Of a stretch of DNA of 23,159 nucleotides, positions 9,007-23,159 are shown one piece after another. Numbering within the stretch: the first letter of the stretch is position 1; each line of letters opens with the position of its first letter. Position numbers and translations under genes: made by a program. Source of the stretch: a virus. Location of the stretch: the IMG/VR virus record IMGVR_UViG_3300025759_000732, positions 1 to 23,159 of that record, one strand, 5' to 3'. The notes under the pieces were generated by a model that did not search any database, was not told where the DNA came from, and saw nothing but the letters and a program-made list of their open reading frames with translations.

Positions 9007-12000
9007 ATGCCAGAAATAAAACATGTTTTCAATCAAGGTAAAATGAACAAAGACCTTGATGAAAGACTAGTTCCTAATGGAGAATATATAGATGCAAACA
9101 ATATTCAAGTATCAACATCTGACACAGATAATGTTGGAACTGTACAAAGTTTATTAGGTAATAGTGCAATACCTGTTGCTAGTCCTACTACAGTTTCTGA
9201 TTCTGGTTTTTGCGTTGGCGCTATTGCTGATGAATCAAATAATACAGCTTATTGGTTAATAGCTGATACTACCGATTGGGTTGCTGCAGCTCCTTCTTCT
9301 ATTCTTACCTACAAAGATTTTATATACAAAAGTGTGTATAACTCTACTACAAACACACATACTACAACGCCTGTTTTTATAGATTTTTGGTTAGAAAAAC
9401 ACCCAACGCCAGCATCTGGTGACTGGACAGGTAGTAATCCATATACAGCTTTCACAACAACAACTACAAATTTATCAACAGGTATGTATGTCAAACTTGT
9501 GGGGACAACTAGCTCTGTTTATAGACAAATAACTGTTTCTGGAAGCACAGTAACACTCGATGTTGAAGTTTATAAAAAAGATTGGGATTGGATAGAGTTT
9601 TCTTGGCAGGTACCTGATACTTACGGGTCAAATGCTTTTACAGATAGCCCTCAATTTAAAAAGCGAGTATTAAGATTTGATAAAAATGTTTTAATTACTG
9701 GTTTGAATATAATTGATGATTTATTGTTTTGGACAGATAATAACAGTGAACCTAAAAAAATAAATTTAACTAGAGCATTAGCAGGCACTGACGCTTCTGA
9801 TTTAAATAAATCAACAAAGGTTTTTGTAAATGGTGTAGAATATGGTTATTATAAAGAAAGCGATATAACTGTTATAAAGAAAAACCCTGAAACAGCGCCT
9901 ATTGTTGATCTAAGTATTTCTGACAGGTCTGGAATAATATCAACAACAACTACATTTAATTTTGACGACGTTAGTATTAATGATACTATTGAGATAGAAA
10001 CTACTGTTGCTACAAATTATAAACCTAATGATACTATATTATTTGGGTATAATATAACGCCTTCTTCAGATAATTTTCATGTAAAGGCTAGAGTTAAAAT
10101 TATTGAAGACACTACTGTTACACTGCAAATGTTGAGCAAGCAAAATACCCCTAGTGGTAGTAATACTTATAATATAATTTTAGAACATATAGCTAAAAAT
10201 CTTTTTGAAGAAAAGTTTGTAAGATTTGCTACGAGATGGAAATATGTTGATGGCGAATACTCTACCATCTCTCCTTTTTCAGACATTGCTTTTATTCCTG
10301 ACGAGTTTAATTATGAGACTATAAAAGGTTATAATGCCGGTATGGTAAATCAAGTTAAAGAAGTTATAATAAAAGATTTTATACCTGTCAACATATCTAA
10401 AGAAGTTGTTCAAATAGACATATTGTATAAAGAGTCTAATTCACCTATTATATATACAGTAGATAATATAAGTAGAACAGACATTGTTATTAACGGAAGT
10501 ACTAACGCTTGGAATACTGTAAACGACAGCTTTACTTTTCAAGGCAAATATTCTATAACTTCTGAAAATATATATGCTGCAATACCATCTAACCAAATAT
10601 TAAGACATTTTGACAATGTGCCTAGAAGGGCTTTAGCTCAAAGCATAACAGGTAACAGGGTTATTTATGGTAATTATTTGCAAAATTATAATTTAAAAGA
10701 CGATGCTAACGATATAGTAAAACCACAATTAAGTGCGTTAATAAGTCCAAGACTAAACAATTCTGCAGAATTATTAGCAAATCCATTGGCAACTCCAATT
10801 AACCACACAACAGGAAATATTGTAGACGGTTGGAATATGGATAACTCTTGGAGTTTAACAGCTGATTTTTATAATACATTATTTTTAGGTGGTGGTTTTG
10901 AAGAAAAAAATCCTTCTACAGGTGTTAGTCAATTTGACAAAATATCTCAAAATATAAATTTTCAAAATGACGGTGTTTATAGAATAAAATTTAAAGTAGA
11001 AAACTATGTGCAAGGCGTTTTAAGATTACAGCTAATAGCTTCAAATAAATTTGCTAGAAAAGATATTAACGCTAACGGAGAATATAACTTTACTCTCAAA
11101 TTAGATACTGTAAATAGAGGAGGTCAAAATAATTTATATAATAATGGCACTACATTTAGTTTTCAATCCTTGTCTGGTTCGTTTAATTGGAAAGGGCAAA
11201 TATCAAACTTTAGTTGTCAAGAAATAGTAGACACTAAAAAATCTATTAAATCTCAAAGAAATTATCAAATAGGTGTAGTTTATGCGGATGAATTTGGTAG
11301 ACAAACTCCAGTGTTAACAGATGAAACAGCATCGTTAAAAGTTCCTAAATCAGAAAGTGTAAATGCAAACTCTATAAAAGTAAAACTGCAAAATAATCCA
11401 CCTGTTTTTGCTTATTCATTTAAATTTTTTGTAAAAGAAACTTCTTCTGAATACTATAATTTAGCCATGGATAGAATATATAATTCTATTGATGGCAATG
11501 TTTGGATTTCTTTTCCATCTTCTGAAAGAAACAAAGTTGATGAAGAAACTTATTTAGTTTTAAAGAAACAAATAGAGGGGCCAGCTGTATTACAAGAATC
11601 TGCTACATATAAAATTCTTGCAATAGAAAATGAAGCGCCTGAATACATAAGATTAACTAGAAACCCTCTTGGTAGTGGTGTTGGTTTAAATGCTTCTGCT
11701 GGTATTAACACTTTATTTGGAGACACTAATTATAGACCTACAGACGATCAAACTGTTTTAGCTATTAAAAAAGATATATGGATAGACAATGATGATGGCG
11801 CACCATTAGACGATTTAAGTAATTTAGTTTTAAGATTTAAAGATGGTACTAGTCTATCAAGTTATTATAAAGTAGATTTGTTATCTGTTAAAGATATAAA
11901 TGGTACTGACTATTATATGTTTCACTTAAATACTCCTATAAGTGATTACGACGCTTCTTGGATAATGAGTGGTACAAATTTAAATACTGGTGTTAGCCTT

Positions 12001-14598
12001 ATTGTTTCAGAGGAAAAAGACGAGGCAAGACCAGAATTTAATGGTAAGTTTTTTGTTAAACTGCTGCTTGATGATAACTTAAAGAATTTTGTATTATCAC
12101 AAGCTGCTTTATCAGAAAGTAATGTTGGTATTGTTGCTAGAACTGAAGCTTGGTATGCGTCTGATGATGGTGTTGTTGGTGTTGGTATTGGAACAGCAAC
12201 AAGGTATCAAAAATTAGATGAAAATATTTTAATACAAACAACTGTAACTAACGATGCTCCTTTTAATGGTAGTGATGATTTTGATTTTTCTGGAGAAAGT
12301 TCATATTCTCCGGCTAGAGGAACTACATATTTAGATAGTGGTAATCGTTACATGAGACTTTCTGAAGAAGCTGTCTTAAAATGGAATAGAATACTTAAGT
12401 TTAAACTTTACGCAAACACACAAATAAACCCTTTAAACGACGATAATAACAGCACAAGAAAAAACTTTTTTATAGATAATGTTTCTTATATAGGTATACA
12501 GCCTTTAAACCAAGATTTACCAGCAAACGGTACATTTAAAGCTTCTGGTTATTGGGATCACAAAAATAACAAAGCAGTAAAAACATCAGGTAGATTTGGT
12601 AGAGGTGTTTTTGAGGCTGATGGTAGTGAAAAAAAGTTTGATGGAGTTACAACTGATACTTGGTTTACTCCTGGTAAATATTATATGGAACTTTCTTATT
12701 CTAAAATTTGGGCAGAAAGTAATTTAAAAGATATTGATGGTAGTAATATTGACACAGCTTCTTCTTGGTCGGATGCCTGGTCTGTTGGTAGTCCAAATAA
12801 TTCAAGCCATGTTAATGAGCAGGAGTTTGTTAAAAAACTAAAAGTAGGTGGTAAGTTTAGATTTAGCGGTGACACTAGTGAAAAGGTTTACACTATAACA
12901 AAAATAAGAAAAGAAAGAAGATGGAATCACACCGCTTATCCTTTTGCTCTTGATGCTAATGGTAATGAGTTTATAATTAGTAGAGAATCAGATGGTACAT
13001 ATGTAAGACCTCGTAATTTAAGCACTAACAATAGTTATTCTTTCGCAAATTCTCAATCATTTGAAAATCCATCAGCTGGAACTAGACAGATTGTAAATGA
13101 AACAGCCACACTTACCTTAAGAGGTGCGGATAGTATAAATAATGAAAAAGATAGATTTGGTCTTGCTACAAATAGAAGGTTAACATGGACTATAGAATTA
13201 GATGATGCGCCTGGGTTTAATAGTAACTATGATCCTTTAAATAGGACCTCTGGGGTAAGTAGTACTTTAATGGACGAAGACACCCCTCAATTTATAGAGT
13301 TTGTAGAACCATCGTTAAACGATGAGCGTCAGTTGCCTTCTAATGAACCAGCTATATTTGAAACACAACCAAAGACTAATGAAGGTTTAGATATTTATTA
13401 TGAAGCTAGTGACTTTATAAGTGTTGGTAATCACACGGTGTTTCATGAGTTACCTTGGTTTAATTGCTATAGCTTTGGTAATGGTGTAGAGTCTAATAGA
13501 ATAAAAGATGATTTTAACCAAGTTGTTATTGATAAAAACCCTAGAGCTTCTACAACTTTTCAAGGTCAATATGAAGAAGAAAGAAGAAAGTATGGTTTAA
13601 TATATTCTGGTTTATACAACTCTACAAGTGGTATTAACGAAACAAATCAATTTATTGCTGCTGAAAAAATTACTAAAGATGTAAACCCAGAATATGGTAG
13701 TATACAAAAATTACACACTAGAAACTCTGATTTATTAACGCTATGTGAAGATAAAGTGTTAAGTATACAAGCTAATAAAGACGCTTTGTTTAACGCCGAT
13801 GGCAATGTAAATGTAACTGCTAGTTCAAATGTACTTGGCCAAACAATACCTTTTGCTGGTGATTATGGTATATCAAAAAATCCAGAGTCATTTGTTACTC
13901 AAAACTACAGGGCTTATTTTACAGATAAACAAAGAGGTGCAGTATTAAGATTATCAATGGATGGTTTAACAGATATATCTGACGCTGGTATGGGTACTTG
14001 GTTTGAAGACAATTTAAAATCTTCTACAACTATACTTGGAACTTATGATAACGATAAAAAAGAATATAATGTAACTTTAAAAGGAAGTTCAAATTATACT
14101 GTTAGTTATAAAGAAAATGTAAAAGGTTGGACAAGTTTTAAATCGTTTATACCAGAACAAGGTTTAAGTATAGCTAACAACTATTATACAATAGCTCCTG
14201 AAAGTGGTAATTTAAAAATATGGTGGCACCATAACAATACTACATATAATAATTTTTATGGAACACAATATTATTCTGATGTTACCTTTGTATTTAATCA
14301 AGAACCAAGTACAATAAAAACTTTTAAAACATTAAACTATGAAGGTACGCAGGCTAAAGTTGATCAAAATACAAACACTGACGAAGGTGAATATTATAAC
14401 TTAACAGCTAAAACAGGTTGGTATACAGAAGATATAACAACTGACAAGCAAAGTGGTAGTTTAAATGAGTTTATAGAAAAAGAAGGTAAATGGTTTAATT
14501 ATATAAAAGGTGATACAACTACATTAAGCAACTTAGACACAGGTGAATTTAATGTTCAGGGTTTAGGAACTATATCATCTCATACAATAGCAAACTAA
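9007..14598 (+). CDS. Giant tail hub / tail stabilisation ('muzzle'-type) protein
   Basis: This 1863-residue protein likely forms the end of the short tail. The N-terminus HVFNQGKMNKDLDERLVPNG with EYIDANNIQV is the signature I know from tail stabilisation proteins (P22 gp10-like, crAss muzzle-type). Further conserved-looking segments are RVIYGNYLQNYNL (about 555-567), YADEFGRQTPVLT (about 758-770), FNCYSFGNGVESNRI (about 1485-1500), and, near the C-terminus, GQTIPFAGDYGISKNPESFV with RAYFTDKQRGAVLRLS. Residues of about 605-740 look like an inserted jelly-roll carbohydrate-binding domain (GWNMDNSWSL to FSCQEI). The protein is almost entirely beta-rich and has no signal peptide. It follows the adaptor by 3 bases and precedes two beta-rich surface proteins. 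The family call is fairly sure; the receptor role of the insert is inference. Confidence 0.8.
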   Translation: MPEIKHVFNQGKMNKDLDERLVPNGEYIDANNIQVSTSDTDNVGTVQSLLGNSAIPVASPTTVSDSGFCVGAIADESNNTAYWLIADTTDWVAAAPSSILTYKDFIYKSVYNSTTNTHTTTPVFIDFWLEKHPTPASGDWTGSNPYTAFTTTTTNLSTGMYVKLVGTTSSVYRQITVSGSTVTLDVEVYKKDWDWIEFSWQVPDTYGSNAFTDSPQFKKRVLRFDKNVLITGLNIIDDLLFWTDNNSEPKKINLTRALAGTDASDLNKSTKVFVNGVEYGYYKESDITVIKKNPETAPIVDLSISDRSGIISTTTTFNFDDVSINDTIEIETTVATNYKPNDTILFGYNITPSSDNFHVKARVKIIEDTTVTLQMLSKQNTPSGSNTYNIILEHIAKNLFEEKFVRFATRWKYVDGEYSTISPFSDIAFIPDEFNYETIKGYNAGMVNQVKEVIIKDFIPVNISKEVVQIDILYKESNSPIIYTVDNISRTDIVINGSTNAWNTVNDSFTFQGKYSITSENIYAAIPSNQILRHFDNVPRRALAQSITGNRVIYGNYLQNYNLKDDANDIVKPQLSALISPRLNNSAELLANPLATPINHTTGNIVDGWNMDNSWSLTADFYNTLFLGGGFEEKNPSTGVSQFDKISQNINFQNDGVYRIKFKVENYVQGVLRLQLIASNKFARKDINANGEYNFTLKLDTVNRGGQNNLYNNGTTFSFQSLSGSFNWKGQISNFSCQEIVDTKKSIKSQRNYQIGVVYADEFGRQTPVLTDETASLKVPKSESVNANSIKVKLQNNPPVFAYSFKFFVKETSSEYYNLAMDRIYNSIDGNVWISFPSSERNKVDEETYLVLKKQIEGPAVLQESATYKILAIENEAPEYIRLTRNPLGSGVGLNASAGINTLFGDTNYRPTDDQTVLAIKKDIWIDNDDGAPLDDLSNLVLRFKDGTSLSSYYKVDLLSVKDINGTDYYMFHLNTPISDYDASWIMSGTNLNTGVSLIVSEEKDEARPEFNGKFFVKLLLDDNLKNFVLSQAALSESNVGIVARTEAWYASDDGVVGVGIGTATRYQKLDENILIQTTVTNDAPFNGSDDFDFSGESSYSPARGTTYLDSGNRYMRLSEEAVLKWNRILKFKLYANTQINPLNDDNNSTRKNFFIDNVSYIGIQPLNQDLPANGTFKASGYWDHKNNKAVKTSGRFGRGVFEADGSEKKFDGVTTDTWFTPGKYYMELSYSKIWAESNLKDIDGSNIDTASSWSDAWSVGSPNNSSHVNEQEFVKKLKVGGKFRFSGDTSEKVYTITKIRKERRWNHTAYPFALDANGNEFIISRESDGTYVRPRNLSTNNSYSFANSQSFENPSAGTRQIVNETATLTLRGADSINNEKDRFGLATNRRLTWTIELDDAPGFNSNYDPLNRTSGVSSTLMDEDTPQFIEFVEPSLNDERQLPSNEPAIFETQPKTNEGLDIYYEASDFISVGNHTVFHELPWFNCYSFGNGVESNRIKDDFNQVVIDKNPRASTTFQGQYEEERRKYGLIYSGLYNSTSGINETNQFIAAEKITKDVNPEYGSIQKLHTRNSDLLTLCEDKVLSIQANKDALFNADGNVNVTASSNVLGQTIPFAGDYGISKNPESFVTQNYRAYFTDKQRGAVLRLSMDGLTDISDAGMGTWFEDNLKSSTTILGTYDNDKKEYNVTLKGSSNYTVSYKENVKGWTSFKSFIPEQGLSIANNYYTIAPESGNLKIWWHHNNTTYNNFYGTQYYSDVTFVFNQEPSTIKTFKTLNYEGTQAKVDQNTNTDEGEYYNLTAKTGWYTEDITTDKQSGSLNEFIEKEGKWFNYIKGDTTTLSNLDTGEFNVQGLGTISSHTIAN

Positions 14599-16670: not shown

Positions 16671-17357
16671 ATGGCTTGGTGGGTACCACTTGCTGCTGCT
16701 GCTGTTGGCGCTATATCTTCTACTAGACAAGGAAGAGCAAATAGACAAGTAGCGCGTGAGCAACAACAACAAGCATTAGAACTTCAAAGAGAACAAGCGG
16801 CTTTGTTGGAGCAGCAAAAACAAGAATATAGAGCTCTTCAATTTAGAAATCCTTTTGCAGAAAATGTTTTTGAAGATTTGACTGTAAGTCAAAGAGCCAC
16901 TAAGTTTCAAGCTCAACAAGGGTTACAGCAAAGAGCTGATATATTGCAAGGGCTTAGAGCTGCAGCTGGTACTAGCGGTATAGCTGGTTTAGCTCAAACA
17001 TTAGCTAATCAAGGGCAATTGCAAGCGCAGGCAATATCAGCTGGTATAGCTGAACAAGAAAGAGCTAATCAAGCAGCTAGAGCACAAGGAGAATTACAAG
17101 TGCAACTAGGACAGCAAATGGTTCAACAATTTGAAGCTGATAGACAAGCGACTTTACTTGGTATGCAACTTGGTCAAACTACAGGTGCTAACTTAGGTGT
17201 TAGAGCGGCTCAACAAAACGTTATGGGTGCAAATTTAGCCGCTGCGCAAGGCACAAGACAAGCTATGGGTACTTTAACAAAAACTCTTTTAAACCCAACG
17301 GTAATGAGTGGTTTGCAAGGTTTATTTGGACCTAAAGGAGGAGGTGATAACGGTTAA
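16671..17357 (+). CDS. Internal virion protein candidate (T7 gp14-like layout)
   Basis: The protein has 228 residues. A short hydrophobic Ala-rich segment at the very N-terminus (WWVPLAAAAVGAISS, residues 3-17) could be membrane-inserting. It is followed by a long Gln/Glu/Arg/Ala-rich helical region (about 20-60 and 75-165) without cysteines, and the C-terminus is Gly-rich (GLFGPKGGGDNG). A hydrophobic cap plus a Gln-rich helical body is the usual look of podovirus internal proteins that are ejected and help form a channel across the cell envelope, such as T7 gp14. The next two genes also look internal, which fits the gp14-gp15-gp16 order. The similarity is in composition and position only. 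The start overlaps the stop of a tiny leader frame (TAATG); the other in-frame evidence is the MAWW N-terminus common in such proteins. Confidence 0.7.
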   Translation: MAWWVPLAAAAVGAISSTRQGRANRQVAREQQQQALELQREQAALLEQQKQEYRALQFRNPFAENVFEDLTVSQRATKFQAQQGLQQRADILQGLRAAAGTSGIAGLAQTLANQGQLQAQAISAGIAEQERANQAARAQGELQVQLGQQMVQQFEADRQATLLGMQLGQTTGANLGVRAAQQNVMGANLAAAQGTRQAMGTLTKTLLNPTVMSGLQGLFGPKGGGDNG

Positions 17358-17370
17358 TAAAATATAAAAT

Positions 17371-18951
17371 ATGGCAGTAAATCAAAAATTAATAGAAGCA
17401 TCGTTTAGAGAAGCAGGATCAAGGGTACCTTTATCTACCACTGATTACAATATTGCTATGACACAAGCTAAAACTGGTGTTATGACAGATATTGTTAATG
17501 CTTATAATCAGTATGAGTCTGGTAAGCAAAAAGCTTTTGACGATATTGCTGGTAACGTAGAAGATATGATGAGAAAACTTGCTTCTGGAAGTGAGCAATT
17601 AGGTGGTATGCATCAGGCAAACGTACAAAGATTAAAACAATTACAGCAAGAGTTTAATTCTGTTTACGGTAACAAAGAAAAAGAAGATGAAGTTAAATTT
17701 AAAATTGAACAACTTGCGTCTGAAATAAACTCTGTAGCAGCTGGTTTTGGTAAGTTTGGTCAAGCGTATATTGATGGTACTATAAATGTAAAAACTACAG
17801 ATCCTAATTTTTATAATGTTTTTGGTAAAGTTTGGGATAAAGATGGCAAATATGATGATGTTCAGTTTAATTGGGATGATAATAATAAACTAAGTGTTAC
17901 TGTAGATGGTGAAACACAAAAAGTAAGTGATTTATTTAACAAATTAGTTACTAAAGATGACGCCCCTACTATTGGGTTAGGTAATCAAGGTTTAAGTTCT
18001 ATGAAGCTTGGCGCTACAAAAGGTAGCACTTTTAACGAAACTGATGCCACGAGAAATGTTGAGTCTTTAATTAATACTCCTGAAAAATTTGCAAACCTTA
18101 CATCATCAGATACTTTTGGTGATATTTCATATAGAGAAGCTTTGTTGACAAACCCTAATATACACAAAGTTTTGCAAACTTTAAATAAAGATAAATATGA
18201 TATTGATGGTAACGGTACTGTAGACAAAAATGATTTTAATACACCCGAAAATATAGCTGTATTATACGATGCACTAACAGACATACATGACAAGAATTTT
18301 GATTTTGAAGTTGCTAAAAAAGTTGCGTCATCTTGGTACACTGACGGTTATTTAAGATCAAAGTTTAATGAAGGTAGAAATATGCTTCAAGAAAAAGAAG
18401 TTAGTAGAACTGGTAAAAGAGGTGCTTATATGACAGCAAAAGGGCAAGTAAGCGCAGATACTTTTGAGCGTGATTTTGTACCTTATATAAACTTTTTAAA
18501 TAATCCAAAAGAAGGTCAAACAATGCAAAGCCCTATTGAGTTTTTAGAAGTTAAATATGAAAATGGAAACTTTTTTATAAATGGTAAAAGTATAGGTCCT
18601 GACCCTAAAGACGTGGCTAAATATGATGGTTTGTTAAATTATATTGAGCAAAAAGCTAACGTTACAAACCAAGGTTTACTTGAAGTTGGTTTTGATTTTA
18701 TAAAAATGAACGAAGAAGATGCTGAAAAATATTTAAAACAAAACTTACCAGAAGGTTTTACTTTTGAACAATATGGCTTAGGTGATGCTATAAAAGTTAT
18801 GTATGGTAATAAATCTGTTAATATAAATCTTCAACCAAACACAACTTCAGGTGAAAAAAGACAGATAAAAAAATTAAATGATTTTATAAAAAGCGTAAAT
18901 GTTTTAAGCGCTGAAGATTTAATAAAAAAATATACTACTAACAATGAATGA
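17371..18951 (+). CDS. Internal virion protein candidate with an EF-hand-like loop
   Basis: This 526-residue protein has no family I can name. The N-terminal 130 residues are helical (NQKLIEASFREAGSRVPLST; NVQRLKQLQQEFNSVYGNKE), the middle is mixed, and the C-terminus is charged. Residues 277-288 read DIDGNGTVDKND, a near-perfect 12-residue calcium-binding loop (D1, D3, N5, G6, V8, D9, D12; position 12 is Asp instead of the more common Glu). It sits 13 bases after the Gln-rich internal protein gene and overlaps the giant gene by 8 bases, so it is probably the middle member of an ejected protein set, by analogy with T7 gp15. The stop is TGA, the only non-TAA stop seen in the window. The internal role is inferred from position. 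Confidence 0.65.
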   Translation: MAVNQKLIEASFREAGSRVPLSTTDYNIAMTQAKTGVMTDIVNAYNQYESGKQKAFDDIAGNVEDMMRKLASGSEQLGGMHQANVQRLKQLQQEFNSVYGNKEKEDEVKFKIEQLASEINSVAAGFGKFGQAYIDGTINVKTTDPNFYNVFGKVWDKDGKYDDVQFNWDDNNKLSVTVDGETQKVSDLFNKLVTKDDAPTIGLGNQGLSSMKLGATKGSTFNETDATRNVESLINTPEKFANLTSSDTFGDISYREALLTNPNIHKVLQTLNKDKYDIDGNGTVDKNDFNTPENIAVLYDALTDIHDKNFDFEVAKKVASSWYTDGYLRSKFNEGRNMLQEKEVSRTGKRGAYMTAKGQVSADTFERDFVPYINFLNNPKEGQTMQSPIEFLEVKYENGNFFINGKSIGPDPKDVAKYDGLLNYIEQKANVTNQGLLEVGFDFIKMNEEDAEKYLKQNLPEGFTFEQYGLGDAIKVMYGNKSVNINLQPNTTSGEKRQIKKLNDFIKSVNVLSAEDLIKKYTTNNE

Positions 18952-21900
18952 GCTAGAGCAAATTGTTCAAAGAATGGTTGATGCTGGTGAGACAGAAGGA
19001 AATATAAAATTAGTAATACAAAACTATAATAAAGTTCCTGCTAGCTTCGCCGCTGATTATAATGTTTTTGGTAGTAATATTAATATTTCCGAACAAGAAG
19101 TTAGTGATATTATTTCTCAAGCTGAAGCTGAGCCAGTAACAAAAATTAAAGAAGAAGAAATTGAACAATCATTGTTTAATCCTTATGCAAAAGGTTATGG
19201 TTCTTACGTTGCTCCTAGAAAAAAAGTAGAATACAAGTCCTATGTTTTTGATGAATTTTTAAACGAGGAAAGAGATAATATAGAACAAGCTAAACAGCAG
19301 TGGATCTCAAAGCAAAGAAAAGATTTATTAAAAGAAAAGTTAGAAGAACGTTTAGAAGATGTAGAGGATAAGTTTTTACCGTGGTATTCTTTACCAGGTG
19401 TAGATCCATCGTTATATGCTAAAAAAGCTGCTTATGCTAAAAAAAGAGCTATACTTGCAACAGAATTTAAAGTTAAAGAGGCAGAGGCTAATAAAGAATA
19501 TATAGAGTTAAGTAACAAATTAACAACAGACAAAGACTCTATAGACAATATTGATTTAAGAATTGATAATATTAAAAAGCAATACGACTTAAACCCTGAT
19601 TCTTTTACAGAAGAAAAAATTAAAGAATTTAAAGATTTAATTAATACGCGAGAAGCTGCTGTAGATCTTTTTAATGAAGAATTAGAAAATTTAAATAAAA
19701 TAGGAATACAATCAGAAGATTTTAATACTATAGCTGATATGACTCAGCGTACTTATAATAATATTGACGTTGCAACAAATAGAATATCATCTAGAACTTT
19801 AAGTGCTATTGCTGGATTAGGTGACTTTGCACAAAATATTAGTTTACCTGGTGTGATCAGAAACCTTGGCGGTATTGATGTTGAAAACGAGGAAGATATA
19901 AAAACACTACCAGTTTTTATACAGCCAATAGCAAGGCAAATGGGTAAAACCATGAAAGAAGAAAAAATAAGTATTAATGAGTTAAGAGATAAAGCTGAAG
20001 AAATAAATAAATTTACAAAGCATAGGCAAGAGTTTAAAAAAATAAATTCTTTAGAAGATTTTGGAGAATTTACTTTAGATTTATTTTCAGAGCAATTAGT
20101 TAATACAGCTGTAACAGCTACTACTGGTAATTTTGGTTTATTTGTCGTTTCAGCAAGTGCTGCTGGTGATAAAATGAATGAAATGAATATTGATATTGAA
20201 AAATATTTACAAACTGGTGGTAAAGAAGGTCAAATGGTAAGTCCTATTCAATTTTATACGGCTGGAATTGGTTATGGTTTATCTGAATATGTAACAGAAA
20301 AAATAGCTTTAAAACAACTTAATACAGCTAAAAACTCTTTTAAAAAAGCAATTGATTTAGATGATTTTGGAGAGTACAGTTTAAAAGAATTCAGTCTTAT
20401 TGATGCTGCTAAAAGATATGGTGTAAATGTTAACCAAGAAGGTTCTGCAGAGCTTTTTGCAAGTTTAGGACAAAATTTTTTAGATAAATATATTTTAGAT
20501 AAAGAGGTTGATTTAAGAGATAATTTACTTGAATCTTATGTTAGCGGTGCTGTAATGAGTGGTTTAGGTTTTCAAGCGCCTGTAATAACAAATGATATAT
20601 ATAGATCTTTTTCTACAAATAATGAGTGGAGTACAGTTAATAATAATTCGAAAAAAATAGTAGAATTACAAGAAAGCTTAAAAAATCTTTATAAAAAAAA
20701 TGTTAAAGATCCAAAAGTTAAAGATGCTATAAAACTACATGTTGAGCAAATAAACGATTTATTAAAAGAAAATTTAAGAGCTAAAAAAATATCTGAAAAT
20801 AGAATAGATGATTTAAGTTCTGACGACAAAGGAGTTTTAATACATTTAACTAGTGAAGCTTATAAACACAAAAAAAGAATTGATGAAATAAACTCTAATG
20901 AGAATTTAACTGAAGATCAAAAAAAATATTTAATAATTAAACACGTTGATAAATTAGAAAATATTTATTCAAAGCAAGAGCAAGTTAGAAATTCAGCTAC
21001 TTTTTCTAAAGATAAAGAAAGAAACAAAAAAGCTACTATAGAATACGCTACGTTAACTGGTGTAAAAATAGAAAACATAACTATAAAAGAAGGTGATAAC
21101 GCTATAGATAAAATAAATGAATATATAGACTCTTCAAATATAGCTGATGATCTTAAAAAAGAATTTAAAGAAGAAATAAAAGTTGAACTAGAAAAAAATC
21201 CAAATGTTCACGGCGCTCATTTTGGTAAAGATTTTGGGCTTCCAATATCTGTTCAATTTGAATCAAATGCTACTAAAGATATTTCTGGTAATTCAACTGT
21301 TTTTTCTCACGAGTTAGGTCATGGTACATTGTTTAGAGCTTTAGCAGAGCAAAATGCTGACATAGTTAAAATGTCGCAAAACTTAGAAAAATATGTTAAA
21401 GCAAGATTTTCAAAACTTTATTTAAAGTTTGCAAAAACACATAGACTGTATAAAGGTTATGACGCTGAATATAGAGCGGAAGAAACCTTGGCAATGACTA
21501 TTGATTTTATGCGTCAATATAATATAGATGCTGATAAATCTCTACAAGGAAAGTTAATAGACAATTTTAACGGCTTGTTTAATAAAAATAAAAACTTAAC
21601 AAAAACTAACGAAGTAAAAACAGGTAAAGACGTTTTTGACCTATTAAAAAGTTTTGCTTTTGGTTTTGAAACAGGAGAAATATCAGACTTAGCTGCTAAA
21701 GTTATAAAAGGTGAAGCTGATATTGTAAAAGCTCCAAAAGAAAAAGTTAAAGAAAAACAACAAGTTCCTTTTTCTAAATCAGCCTCTGACAATGTACAGC
21801 GTATATACGAGGAGCAAGGCGTTGGCGGTGTTTTTGATATTATAAATGAATTTAAACCTATAGTAAATAAAATAGTAGACAAGCGTAAGGACGCTCCAGG

Positions 21901-23159
21901 TTTTGATAGACAATTGCTAGCCGATGAAATAGAAACTGGTGAGCGTGGTATATTGGATTTAATTGGTGAATATAAACCAGAGTCTGGTGTGCCATTAGCA
22001 GCGTTTATAAATAAATTTTTACCAGCTAGAGCTATTGAAGCTTCAAGAAGAGTTTTAGGTGAAGAGTTTACTGTAGACGTTACAGAGGCAAAAACTGTTG
22101 CAGCTGAAGAAGTTGCTGAAGTTGAAGTTAAGCCTAAGCCAAAGAAAAAGAAAATTATTTTATCTGATAGGCTGGGTGTTAAAAATAAAGTTGACGAGGC
22201 AATTAGTAAAAAACTGCCTGAGTTAGATATTGAGAATTTAAACTTTAAAAAATTAAAAGACCAAACACCAGAAATAACTGGAGAGCTATTTGGTATATCT
22301 CCTAAAAAACTGATAAGCTTAGCAAATATAACTAAAAAAGAATTACAGTCTGCGCAAATGTTTATTAATAAAAACGCAGATGTTTTAATGGCAATGCTAC
22401 CTGAAGGTGCTACCACCGGTGGTACAGCTACTGGAGTACCTAATACTTTATTAAAAGCTTTTTATATAAAAACTGAAAGGGCAAAAGCAGCTAAAACTGG
22501 CAGTAAAGCAGGTCTTGCAATACAACAAAAGAAAGCTATAACTAAAAAAGAATTTTTAGAAACTTTTGGTATTATAGACGGTAAGCCAGATCGTACAGAT
22601 AGAAACACATCAGCTAGGGTTTTAGCTTTAGCAGGTGTAACTGGTAAAATGATGAGCAATCAAGCTATTAGAGAAGAGTTATCTAAAAATACAACAGAAG
22701 ATAATGCTAAATTAATGCTTAGACTTTCAGATGGTAAATCAACTGTTATGTTTAGTAAACAAGAATCTATAGACAAAGGCGTGCCTTTTATAGTAGATTA
22801 TTTAAAGCAAGTTGACTCTGAAATTACAGAAGACAAAGCTTATCAAATTTTGGGTAACTACGCAAACCTTACTGACGATGAATTTAAAAGTAATTTTCCA
22901 ACATACTTTAACGGTATAATAGATTATGTAGAAGCCATGTCTCAGTTTATAGCTGATGGTGGCAAAGAAGCTCAGCAATTTACAAAAGCCATAAAAGGAG
23001 TTGATTTTGGTAATCAAAAATTAAATGATTATTTAAAAAATGGTTTTTGGACATTGTCAGATGCTAAGTTTAAAAAAGATAAAAAAGCTATGGCTTGGTT
23101 TTTAAAGACGTCTTACGATCTTGCAGACCAAATAGTTTTGCCAGAAAACGCAACTAATG
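18944..23159 (+). CDS. Giant multidomain virion protein with zincin metallopeptidase motif (3' partial)
   Basis: The frame opens at ATG 18944, overlapping the previous stop by 8 bases (ATGAATGA), and stays open to the window end: 1405 codons, no stop. Residues 1-380 are charged and helical. Residues 383-455 and 499-545 are Gly/Ala-rich and hydrophobic (NFGLFVVSASAAGDKM, YVSGAVMSGLGF). HELGHG at 789-794 is a zincin motif, with E846/E847 in YRAEETLAM as candidates for the third zinc ligand. FSK occurs at 687, 943 and 1270, bracketing the zincin and the next module. Residues 1002-1050 match the spacing of sigma region 2. A Lys-rich linker (KPKPKKKK) follows, then a conserved-looking segment (GVPNTLLKAFYIKTERAKAA; NTSARVLALAGVTGKMMSNQ). 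It is most likely an injected internal virion or polyvalent protein. The peptidase motif is sure; the other functions are inference. Confidence 0.85.
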   Translation, partial: MNELEQIVQRMVDAGETEGNIKLVIQNYNKVPASFAADYNVFGSNINISEQEVSDIISQAEAEPVTKIKEEEIEQSLFNPYAKGYGSYVAPRKKVEYKSYVFDEFLNEERDNIEQAKQQWISKQRKDLLKEKLEERLEDVEDKFLPWYSLPGVDPSLYAKKAAYAKKRAILATEFKVKEAEANKEYIELSNKLTTDKDSIDNIDLRIDNIKKQYDLNPDSFTEEKIKEFKDLINTREAAVDLFNEELENLNKIGIQSEDFNTIADMTQRTYNNIDVATNRISSRTLSAIAGLGDFAQNISLPGVIRNLGGIDVENEEDIKTLPVFIQPIARQMGKTMKEEKISINELRDKAEEINKFTKHRQEFKKINSLEDFGEFTLDLFSEQLVNTAVTATTGNFGLFVVSASAAGDKMNEMNIDIEKYLQTGGKEGQMVSPIQFYTAGIGYGLSEYVTEKIALKQLNTAKNSFKKAIDLDDFGEYSLKEFSLIDAAKRYGVNVNQEGSAELFASLGQNFLDKYILDKEVDLRDNLLESYVSGAVMSGLGFQAPVITNDIYRSFSTNNEWSTVNNNSKKIVELQESLKNLYKKNVKDPKVKDAIKLHVEQINDLLKENLRAKKISENRIDDLSSDDKGVLIHLTSEAYKHKKRIDEINSNENLTEDQKKYLIIKHVDKLENIYSKQEQVRNSATFSKDKERNKKATIEYATLTGVKIENITIKEGDNAIDKINEYIDSSNIADDLKKEFKEEIKVELEKNPNVHGAHFGKDFGLPISVQFESNATKDISGNSTVFSHELGHGTLFRALAEQNADIVKMSQNLEKYVKARFSKLYLKFAKTHRLYKGYDAEYRAEETLAMTIDFMRQYNIDADKSLQGKLIDNFNGLFNKNKNLTKTNEVKTGKDVFDLLKSFAFGFETGEISDLAAKVIKGEADIVKAPKEKVKEKQQVPFSKSASDNVQRIYEEQGVGGVFDIINEFKPIVNKIVDKRKDAPGFDRQLLADEIETGERGILDLIGEYKPESGVPLAAFINKFLPARAIEASRRVLGEEFTVDVTEAKTVAAEEVAEVEVKPKPKKKKIILSDRLGVKNKVDEAISKKLPELDIENLNFKKLKDQTPEITGELFGISPKKLISLANITKKELQSAQMFINKNADVLMAMLPEGATTGGTATGVPNTLLKAFYIKTERAKAAKTGSKAGLAIQQKKAITKKEFLETFGIIDGKPDRTDRNTSARVLALAGVTGKMMSNQAIREELSKNTTEDNAKLMLRLSDGKSTVMFSKQESIDKGVPFIVDYLKQVDSEITEDKAYQILGNYANLTDDEFKSNFPTYFNGIIDYVEAMSQFIADGGKEAQQFTKAIKGVDFGNQKLNDYLKNGFWTLSDAKFKKDKKAMAWFLKTSYDLADQIVLPENATN

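Follow-up and report, generated by a model that had tools for sequence, protein, structure and literature searches.

The virus record IMGVR_UViG_3300025759_000732 of IMG/VR, whose 23,159 nucleotides form the window analyzed here, ends in a giant open reading frame (ORF) in which a predicted M34-like zincin metallopeptidase is followed by a module with a sigma-70 region-2-like predicted fold. The ORF (18944-23158, + strand) starts with ATG, runs for 1405 codons and is still open at the 3' end of the contig; the first-pass annotation had read the same frame of at least 1405 codons from position 18944 and had missed the sigma-2-like module at residues 943-1050. The novel element is that such a module sits in a protein with orthologues annotated as structural components of the virion. 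A short FSK-type motif recurs at the joints between modules. We give about even credence to the reading that the protein is an ejected polyprotein cut at its FSK joints, plausibly by its own zincin, which would free the sigma-like module to redirect the host RNA polymerase. For comparison we used 131 non-redundant giant proteins drawn from IMG/VR (hereafter relatives), 112 of which match the zincin profile; relatives without truncation are mostly 2,100-3,700 aa long.

The zincin module occupies residues 690-938 (21011..21757, +). It contains HELGHG at residues 789-794 and a glutamate pair at 846/847, which the first-pass annotation had proposed as the zinc site of a peptidase. Conservation bears out this proposal and selects one of the two glutamates: among the 112 relatives matching the zincin profile, H793 and E847 are invariant and H789 and E790 are conserved in >90%, so that the conserved glutamate is E847, not E846. 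HExxH is present in nearly all 131 relatives, usually exactly once, and arises in 0.7% of shuffles of the giant protein. Within HELGH (residues 789-793; 21308..21322, +), H789 and H793 are the predicted zinc ligands and E790 the predicted catalytic residue, and E847 (21482..21484, +) is the presumed third ligand.

A model of residues 690-938, generated from the alignment of 112 sequences (predicted local distance difference test score, pLDDT, 80; predicted template modeling score, pTM, 0.79), contains three strands and combines the features of a gluzincin: HExxH on a helix (97-113 of the model), the third-ligand glutamate on a downstream helix (152-170) and a zincin fold. The refuting outcomes named in the first-pass annotation did not arise: HExxH is kept in close homologues, and the histidines and the glutamate converge as judged from this zincin-like fold, not from atom distances. 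VIA-align showed that the top 14 rows were all M34-type zincins (Z 7.2-4.3), with anthrax lethal factor at Z 7.2 (root-mean-square deviation, rmsd, 5.1 over 181) and PPEP at Z 5.5-4.3 (rmsd ~3.9 over ~145); the rows below were unrelated, with Z of 3.8 or less. These zincins are thereby the only notable structural neighbors of the model; Foldseek alone gave no significant match with it, and the VIA Z scores are also under 8. Lethal factor and PPEP share the zinc-domain fold and HExxH plus a downstream glutamate with the phage module, but they are secreted bacterial proteins with ~10% sequence identity to it. On the evidence of fold and conservation, the assignment of residues 690-938 as an M34-like zincin peptidase is well supported. 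Judged by sequence and model, the module belongs to the zincins known from phage polyvalent proteins and adds a member to them: those zincins likewise have HExxH, a glutamate on a later helix and a three-stranded sheet, autoprocessing was proposed for them, and a match to anthrax lethal factor was reported for the N4 example as well (Iyer et al., 2017; PMC5512222). In the relative L020, its near copies L023/L026 and in L025, HDxxH (HDGLH or HDAFH) replaces HExxH, and the joint motifs there are ESK or FSE.

Downstream of the zincin lies the best-conserved part of the giant protein, residues 943-1272, which is 73% identical to the relatives L003/L004. For its first section, residues 943-1050 (21770..22093, +), a sigma-70 region-2-like predicted fold is well supported by modeling and profile comparison. 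In a joint model, cited here by its own residue numbers, this section corresponds to residues 258-360 with a pLDDT of ~90; the best 50 VIA rows for it were overwhelmingly sigma factors, headed by 6ca0_F (Z 9.5, rmsd 2.6 over 90 residues). Foldseek on the joint model listed sigma factors first (E 0.1-1), with phage sigma factors among the BFVD matches. An NCBIfam scan of 64 members returned sub-cutoff matches to SigI in 34, SigK in 15, FliA/WhiG in 8 and also SigE, the best at E 3.4e-4. With five Escherichia coli sigma factors, hhalign gave P 9.7e-4 in the register of regions 2.1-2.3, versus 0.4 for the reversed-profile control. Searches with the giant protein yielded no significant match in Pfam or PHROGs and nothing significant in PDB profile searches by sequence, in which the sigma block alone lists sigma factors at E 0.6-0.8. 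The remainder of the conserved block, residues 1051-1269 (22094..22750, +), is a conserved domain of unknown fold coupled to the sigma-2-like module. In L061, L052, L082 and other relatives, the blocks after the zincin look to the eye like sigma region 2.3 (e.g. NYDPKKGAFSTHVYNNI); divergent blocks such as those of L052 and L061 reached only P 0.04 against the E. coli sigma factors, with mostly unrelated family matches, and their sigma likeness is suggestive only.

The borders of these modules coincide with FSK tripeptides. FSK 687-689 (21002..21010, +) stands before the zincin in a low-confidence segment (joint-model residues 4-6); FSK 943-945 (21770..21778, +) lies between the zincin and the sigma-2-like module, after the low-confidence linker 247-259 and before helix 262-286 of the joint model; and FSK 1270-1272 (22751..22759, +) ends the conserved block in the low-confidence segment 586-590. 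The block with 73% identity to L003/L004 begins at FSK 943 and stops exactly at FSK 1270-1272. A further copy, FSK 822-824 (21407..21415, +), lies inside the zincin at a turn between two helices and is not a module joint. FSK occurs 289 times in the 131 giants, versus 57-104 times for four permutations; KFS, at 184, overlaps with the frequent KFSK. In the remaining proteins encoded on the contigs of these giants, FSK is not in excess, and its interpretation as a phage-wide cleavage signal was rejected because of this lack of enrichment. Homology breakpoints per site numbered 11.6 for FSK and 1.0-2.7 for the permutations, a test by ends of high-scoring segment pairs that is partly circular, as conserved modules begin with FSK. 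The better evidence is the count of distinct downstream contexts, 117 for FSK versus 42-59 for the permuted tripeptides, or about twice as many. The FSK serine is encoded by AGY codons in 62% and TCN codons in 38% of cases; since both codon families are used, it is the amino acids that were kept, and not one DNA junction. Variant joints recur at several sites of the same protein, with FSE in L025, L032, L085 and L099 and ESK in L020. Collectively, the sequences suggest that the recurring FSK-type motif at module joints marks candidate processing sites.

We propose the following sequence of events. A giant modular internal protein would be ejected through the tail together with the DNA, its N-terminal ~680 residues acting in assembly or ejection. 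The modules would follow in the order N-terminal region, M34-like zinc peptidase, sigma-2-like module with the conserved partner domain, and further modules past the contig end, joined by putatively disordered short linkers that carry the FSK-type motif. The zincin may cut the FSK joints of its own chain (in cis) or those of another copy (in trans), either as the particle matures or once the protein has entered the cell. Cutting would release the sigma-like module, which would then bind the host RNA polymerase core and direct it to the early promoters of the phage. We infer here that the protein is in the virion, that it is cleaved, which protease cuts it and that the module binds RNA polymerase. 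Zincins that process injected multidomain phage proteins were proposed in 2017 by Iyer et al. (PMC5512222); this proposal fits the present protein, and candidate cut sites can be named from the FSK joints, which make self-processing more plausible.

Several observations weigh against cleavage by the built-in zincin. Another protease could cut the joints, or none. In N4, the virion RNA polymerase is packaged unprocessed although it includes a zincin as well (PMC5512222). Statistical support for a coherent joint motif within each protein is weak (p 0.04). The variant joints FSE, FSA and ESK speak in favor, as 7/8 cases lie in proteins that do not belong to the main zincin subfamily (Fisher p 7e-6), but this association rests on post hoc grouping and is confounded by kinship; a partial Mantel test of zincin against joint motif, corrected for C-terminal similarity, was not significant (p 0.18), and tight co-evolution of the two was rejected on this result. 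Alternatively, the zincin could cut host proteins as an effector once ejected, with no polyprotein processing, and the FSK joints could be only flexible linkers or sites of another protease. Iyer et al. (PMC5512222) give host targeting as an alternative role for such peptidases, and the unprocessed N4 protein and the Mantel test are in line with it. However, FSK recurs at module joints in many unrelated contexts and joint variants tend to accompany changes of zincin subfamily, and we regard the effector role as rather unlikely. We find it improbable that the joints are left over from module shuffling, as shared short junctions that aid recombination, with no proteolysis. Modules are visibly swapped at FSK points, as this explanation would predict, but the same serine is drawn from two codon families that cannot be converted into each other by one synonymous step, and there are ~60 extra independent FSK contexts.

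The sigma-like part of the proposed polyprotein also faces contrary evidence. Every NCBIfam sigma match among the 64 members was far below the curated cut-off, Pfam Sigma70_r2 matched neither the window protein nor the members, and no sigma region 4 was matched in the giants of 18 long records, a scan that does not extend to the part of the window protein beyond the contig. A VIA Z of 7-10 in a helical domain can moreover reflect a common helix arrangement. Measured against the sigma-70 family, the module has the region 2 fold in the model, with this helical-domain caveat, and the register of regions 2.1-2.3 as in SigI, SigK, FliA and sigma-70, but it is below all curated thresholds, does not retain the tandem tryptophan pair found in region 2.3 of sigma-70, shows no region-4 match in the giants scanned and is embedded in a virion-type protein. 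Because Pfam Sigma70_r2 gave no match and the NCBIfam matches were below cut-offs, we describe the module as sigma-2-like and do not class it among the sigma factors. It might instead be a helical fold with a structural or ejection role and no contact with RNA polymerase, as the failure of every curated sigma model, the lack of a region-4 match in the giants and the 30/64 members without a SigI match even at low threshold would allow. We consider this doubtful: the structural rows and NCBIfam matches are largely specific to sigma, the profile alignment is in the right register of regions 2.1-2.3, and these phages encode classical sigma factors too. A stand-alone sigma ORF of ~250 aa was found in 14/18 long relatives, with region 2 in 14 and region 4 in 13, and region-4 matches in these 18 occur only in such separate ORFs. 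The stand-alone sigma factor (~252 aa), apart from the giant, was seen in L192, L193 and 12 further records.

Immediate transcription start in phages without their own RNA polymerase is usually ascribed to host promoters. If the release of a sigma-like module from an ejected polyprotein is true, this virion-borne module would solve the problem in a different way and would parallel the polymerases that N4 and crAss-like phages package. Tentatively, it is possible that the phage brings a sigma factor into the cell inside the particle and that the built-in zincin frees a sigma-2-based module, replacing the packaged RNA polymerase of gut crassviruses. A report of a packaged or ejected sigma factor was not found in the open-access literature searched. 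The joint motif may, in addition, serve as a marker of module borders in other giant phage proteins. The crAss-like phage crAss001 likewise has a crAss-type muzzle and stores large cargo proteins (gp45-gp50) in the virion for ejection, but it packages RNA-polymerase-associated proteins (PMC10172136), whereas no such gene was seen in a near-complete 72 kb relative and the giant has a sigma-2-like module. In that relative, no polymerase-like ORF of crAss size was found besides the muzzle and the giant, and the muzzle is the only other ORF of the giant's size; GroEL, terminase, portal and sigma genes are present (names except sigma read from the sequence start only). Cellulophaga phage phi38:1 shares this order of tail genes with the window, and the portions of its annotation examined list no RNA polymerase. 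The giant protein as a packaged RNA polymerase of the crAss-like kind was rejected: a DxDxD motif is absent from the window protein, whose conserved block is sigma-like.

The place of the giant protein among virion genes was evaluated from its N-terminal region and its neighbors. Residues 1-686 (18944..21001, +) are rich in coiled coil and include a hydrophobic stretch at ~384-408 by hydropathy; residues ~219-690 resemble virion structural proteins of Cellulophaga and Tenacibaculum phages (tblastn, 17 phage records matched). BLASTP gave E 4e-14 with gp74 of Tenacibaculum phage Gundel_1 (2482 aa) and E 4e-11 with phi38:1 gp101. Both share a similar N-terminal region and are annotated as structural proteins, gp101 at the same gene position; gp74 has HEFGH followed by a glutamate pair, whereas gp101 has no HExxH, and neither has the sigma-2-like block. 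The virion protein named in the first-pass annotation is thus backed indirectly, through the position, N-terminal similarity and annotation of these orthologues. From their structural annotation, we consider that the protein is probably ejected into the host. Encoded by a marine crAss-like phage, it is probably an internal protein of modular build. As in the polyvalent proteins exemplified by phage P1 DdrB and the N4 virion RNA polymerase (PMC5512222), a giant multidomain protein is encoded beside late virion genes, and several unrelated domains including an MPTase, here the zincin, the sigma-2-like module and a HAD-like DFDDT region (the last in relatives), are combined in one polypeptide. 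In that paper, unlike here, 'sigma' is absent from the main text and no joint motif appears in the peptidase section.

The window further encodes crAss-type large terminase, portal, major capsid, head and muzzle proteins. The muzzle protein (9007..14598, +) matched Pfam crAss_MUZ_C (PF25729) with 48.2 bits (cut-off 27) and phi38:1 gp97 with a BLASTP E of 7e-55, and this crAss muzzle domain marks a Crassvirales-type virion. Between it and the giant ORF lie genes for a 228-aa Ala/Gln-rich protein (16671..17357, +) and a 526-aa protein (17371..18951, +), both candidate internal or ejection proteins. Their order corresponds to gp99 and gp100 of phi38:1, where muzzle-like gp97, gp98, a 200 aa protein, a 549 aa protein and the 1691 aa structural protein follow one another, and the 526-aa protein matches the protein at the same position in L004 (BLASTP E 1e-6). 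The first-pass annotation had called both proteins internal-virion-like; gene order agrees, and on it the label rests, because neither protein has a BLASTP match to phi38:1.

The end of the window protein, residues 1273-1405 (22760..23158, +), is the start of a further module that ends with the contig; BLASTP alignments to most relatives stop near 1272. Further downstream, the relatives' giants contain a HAD-like DFDDT region (L004 ~1337-1480), in many preceded by an FSK/FSR-type joint, and a very conserved C-terminal region of ~690 aa (A2), which lies beyond the window and has at least 484 confirmed IMG/VR matches. Neither the conserved block 943-1272 nor the A2 region had a tblastn match in the collection of isolated phages, and the GTDB genome contigs contained no relatives of the conserved block. 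With no relatives in these contigs, the host was deduced only from the flavobacterial phage relatives, which make Bacteroidota the probable host group. In the 72 kb relative, the GroEL gene, also present in phi38:1, is split over the contig ends (L199 3-1415, L202 4217-4972), which suggests that this record is circular or circularly permuted and near-complete.
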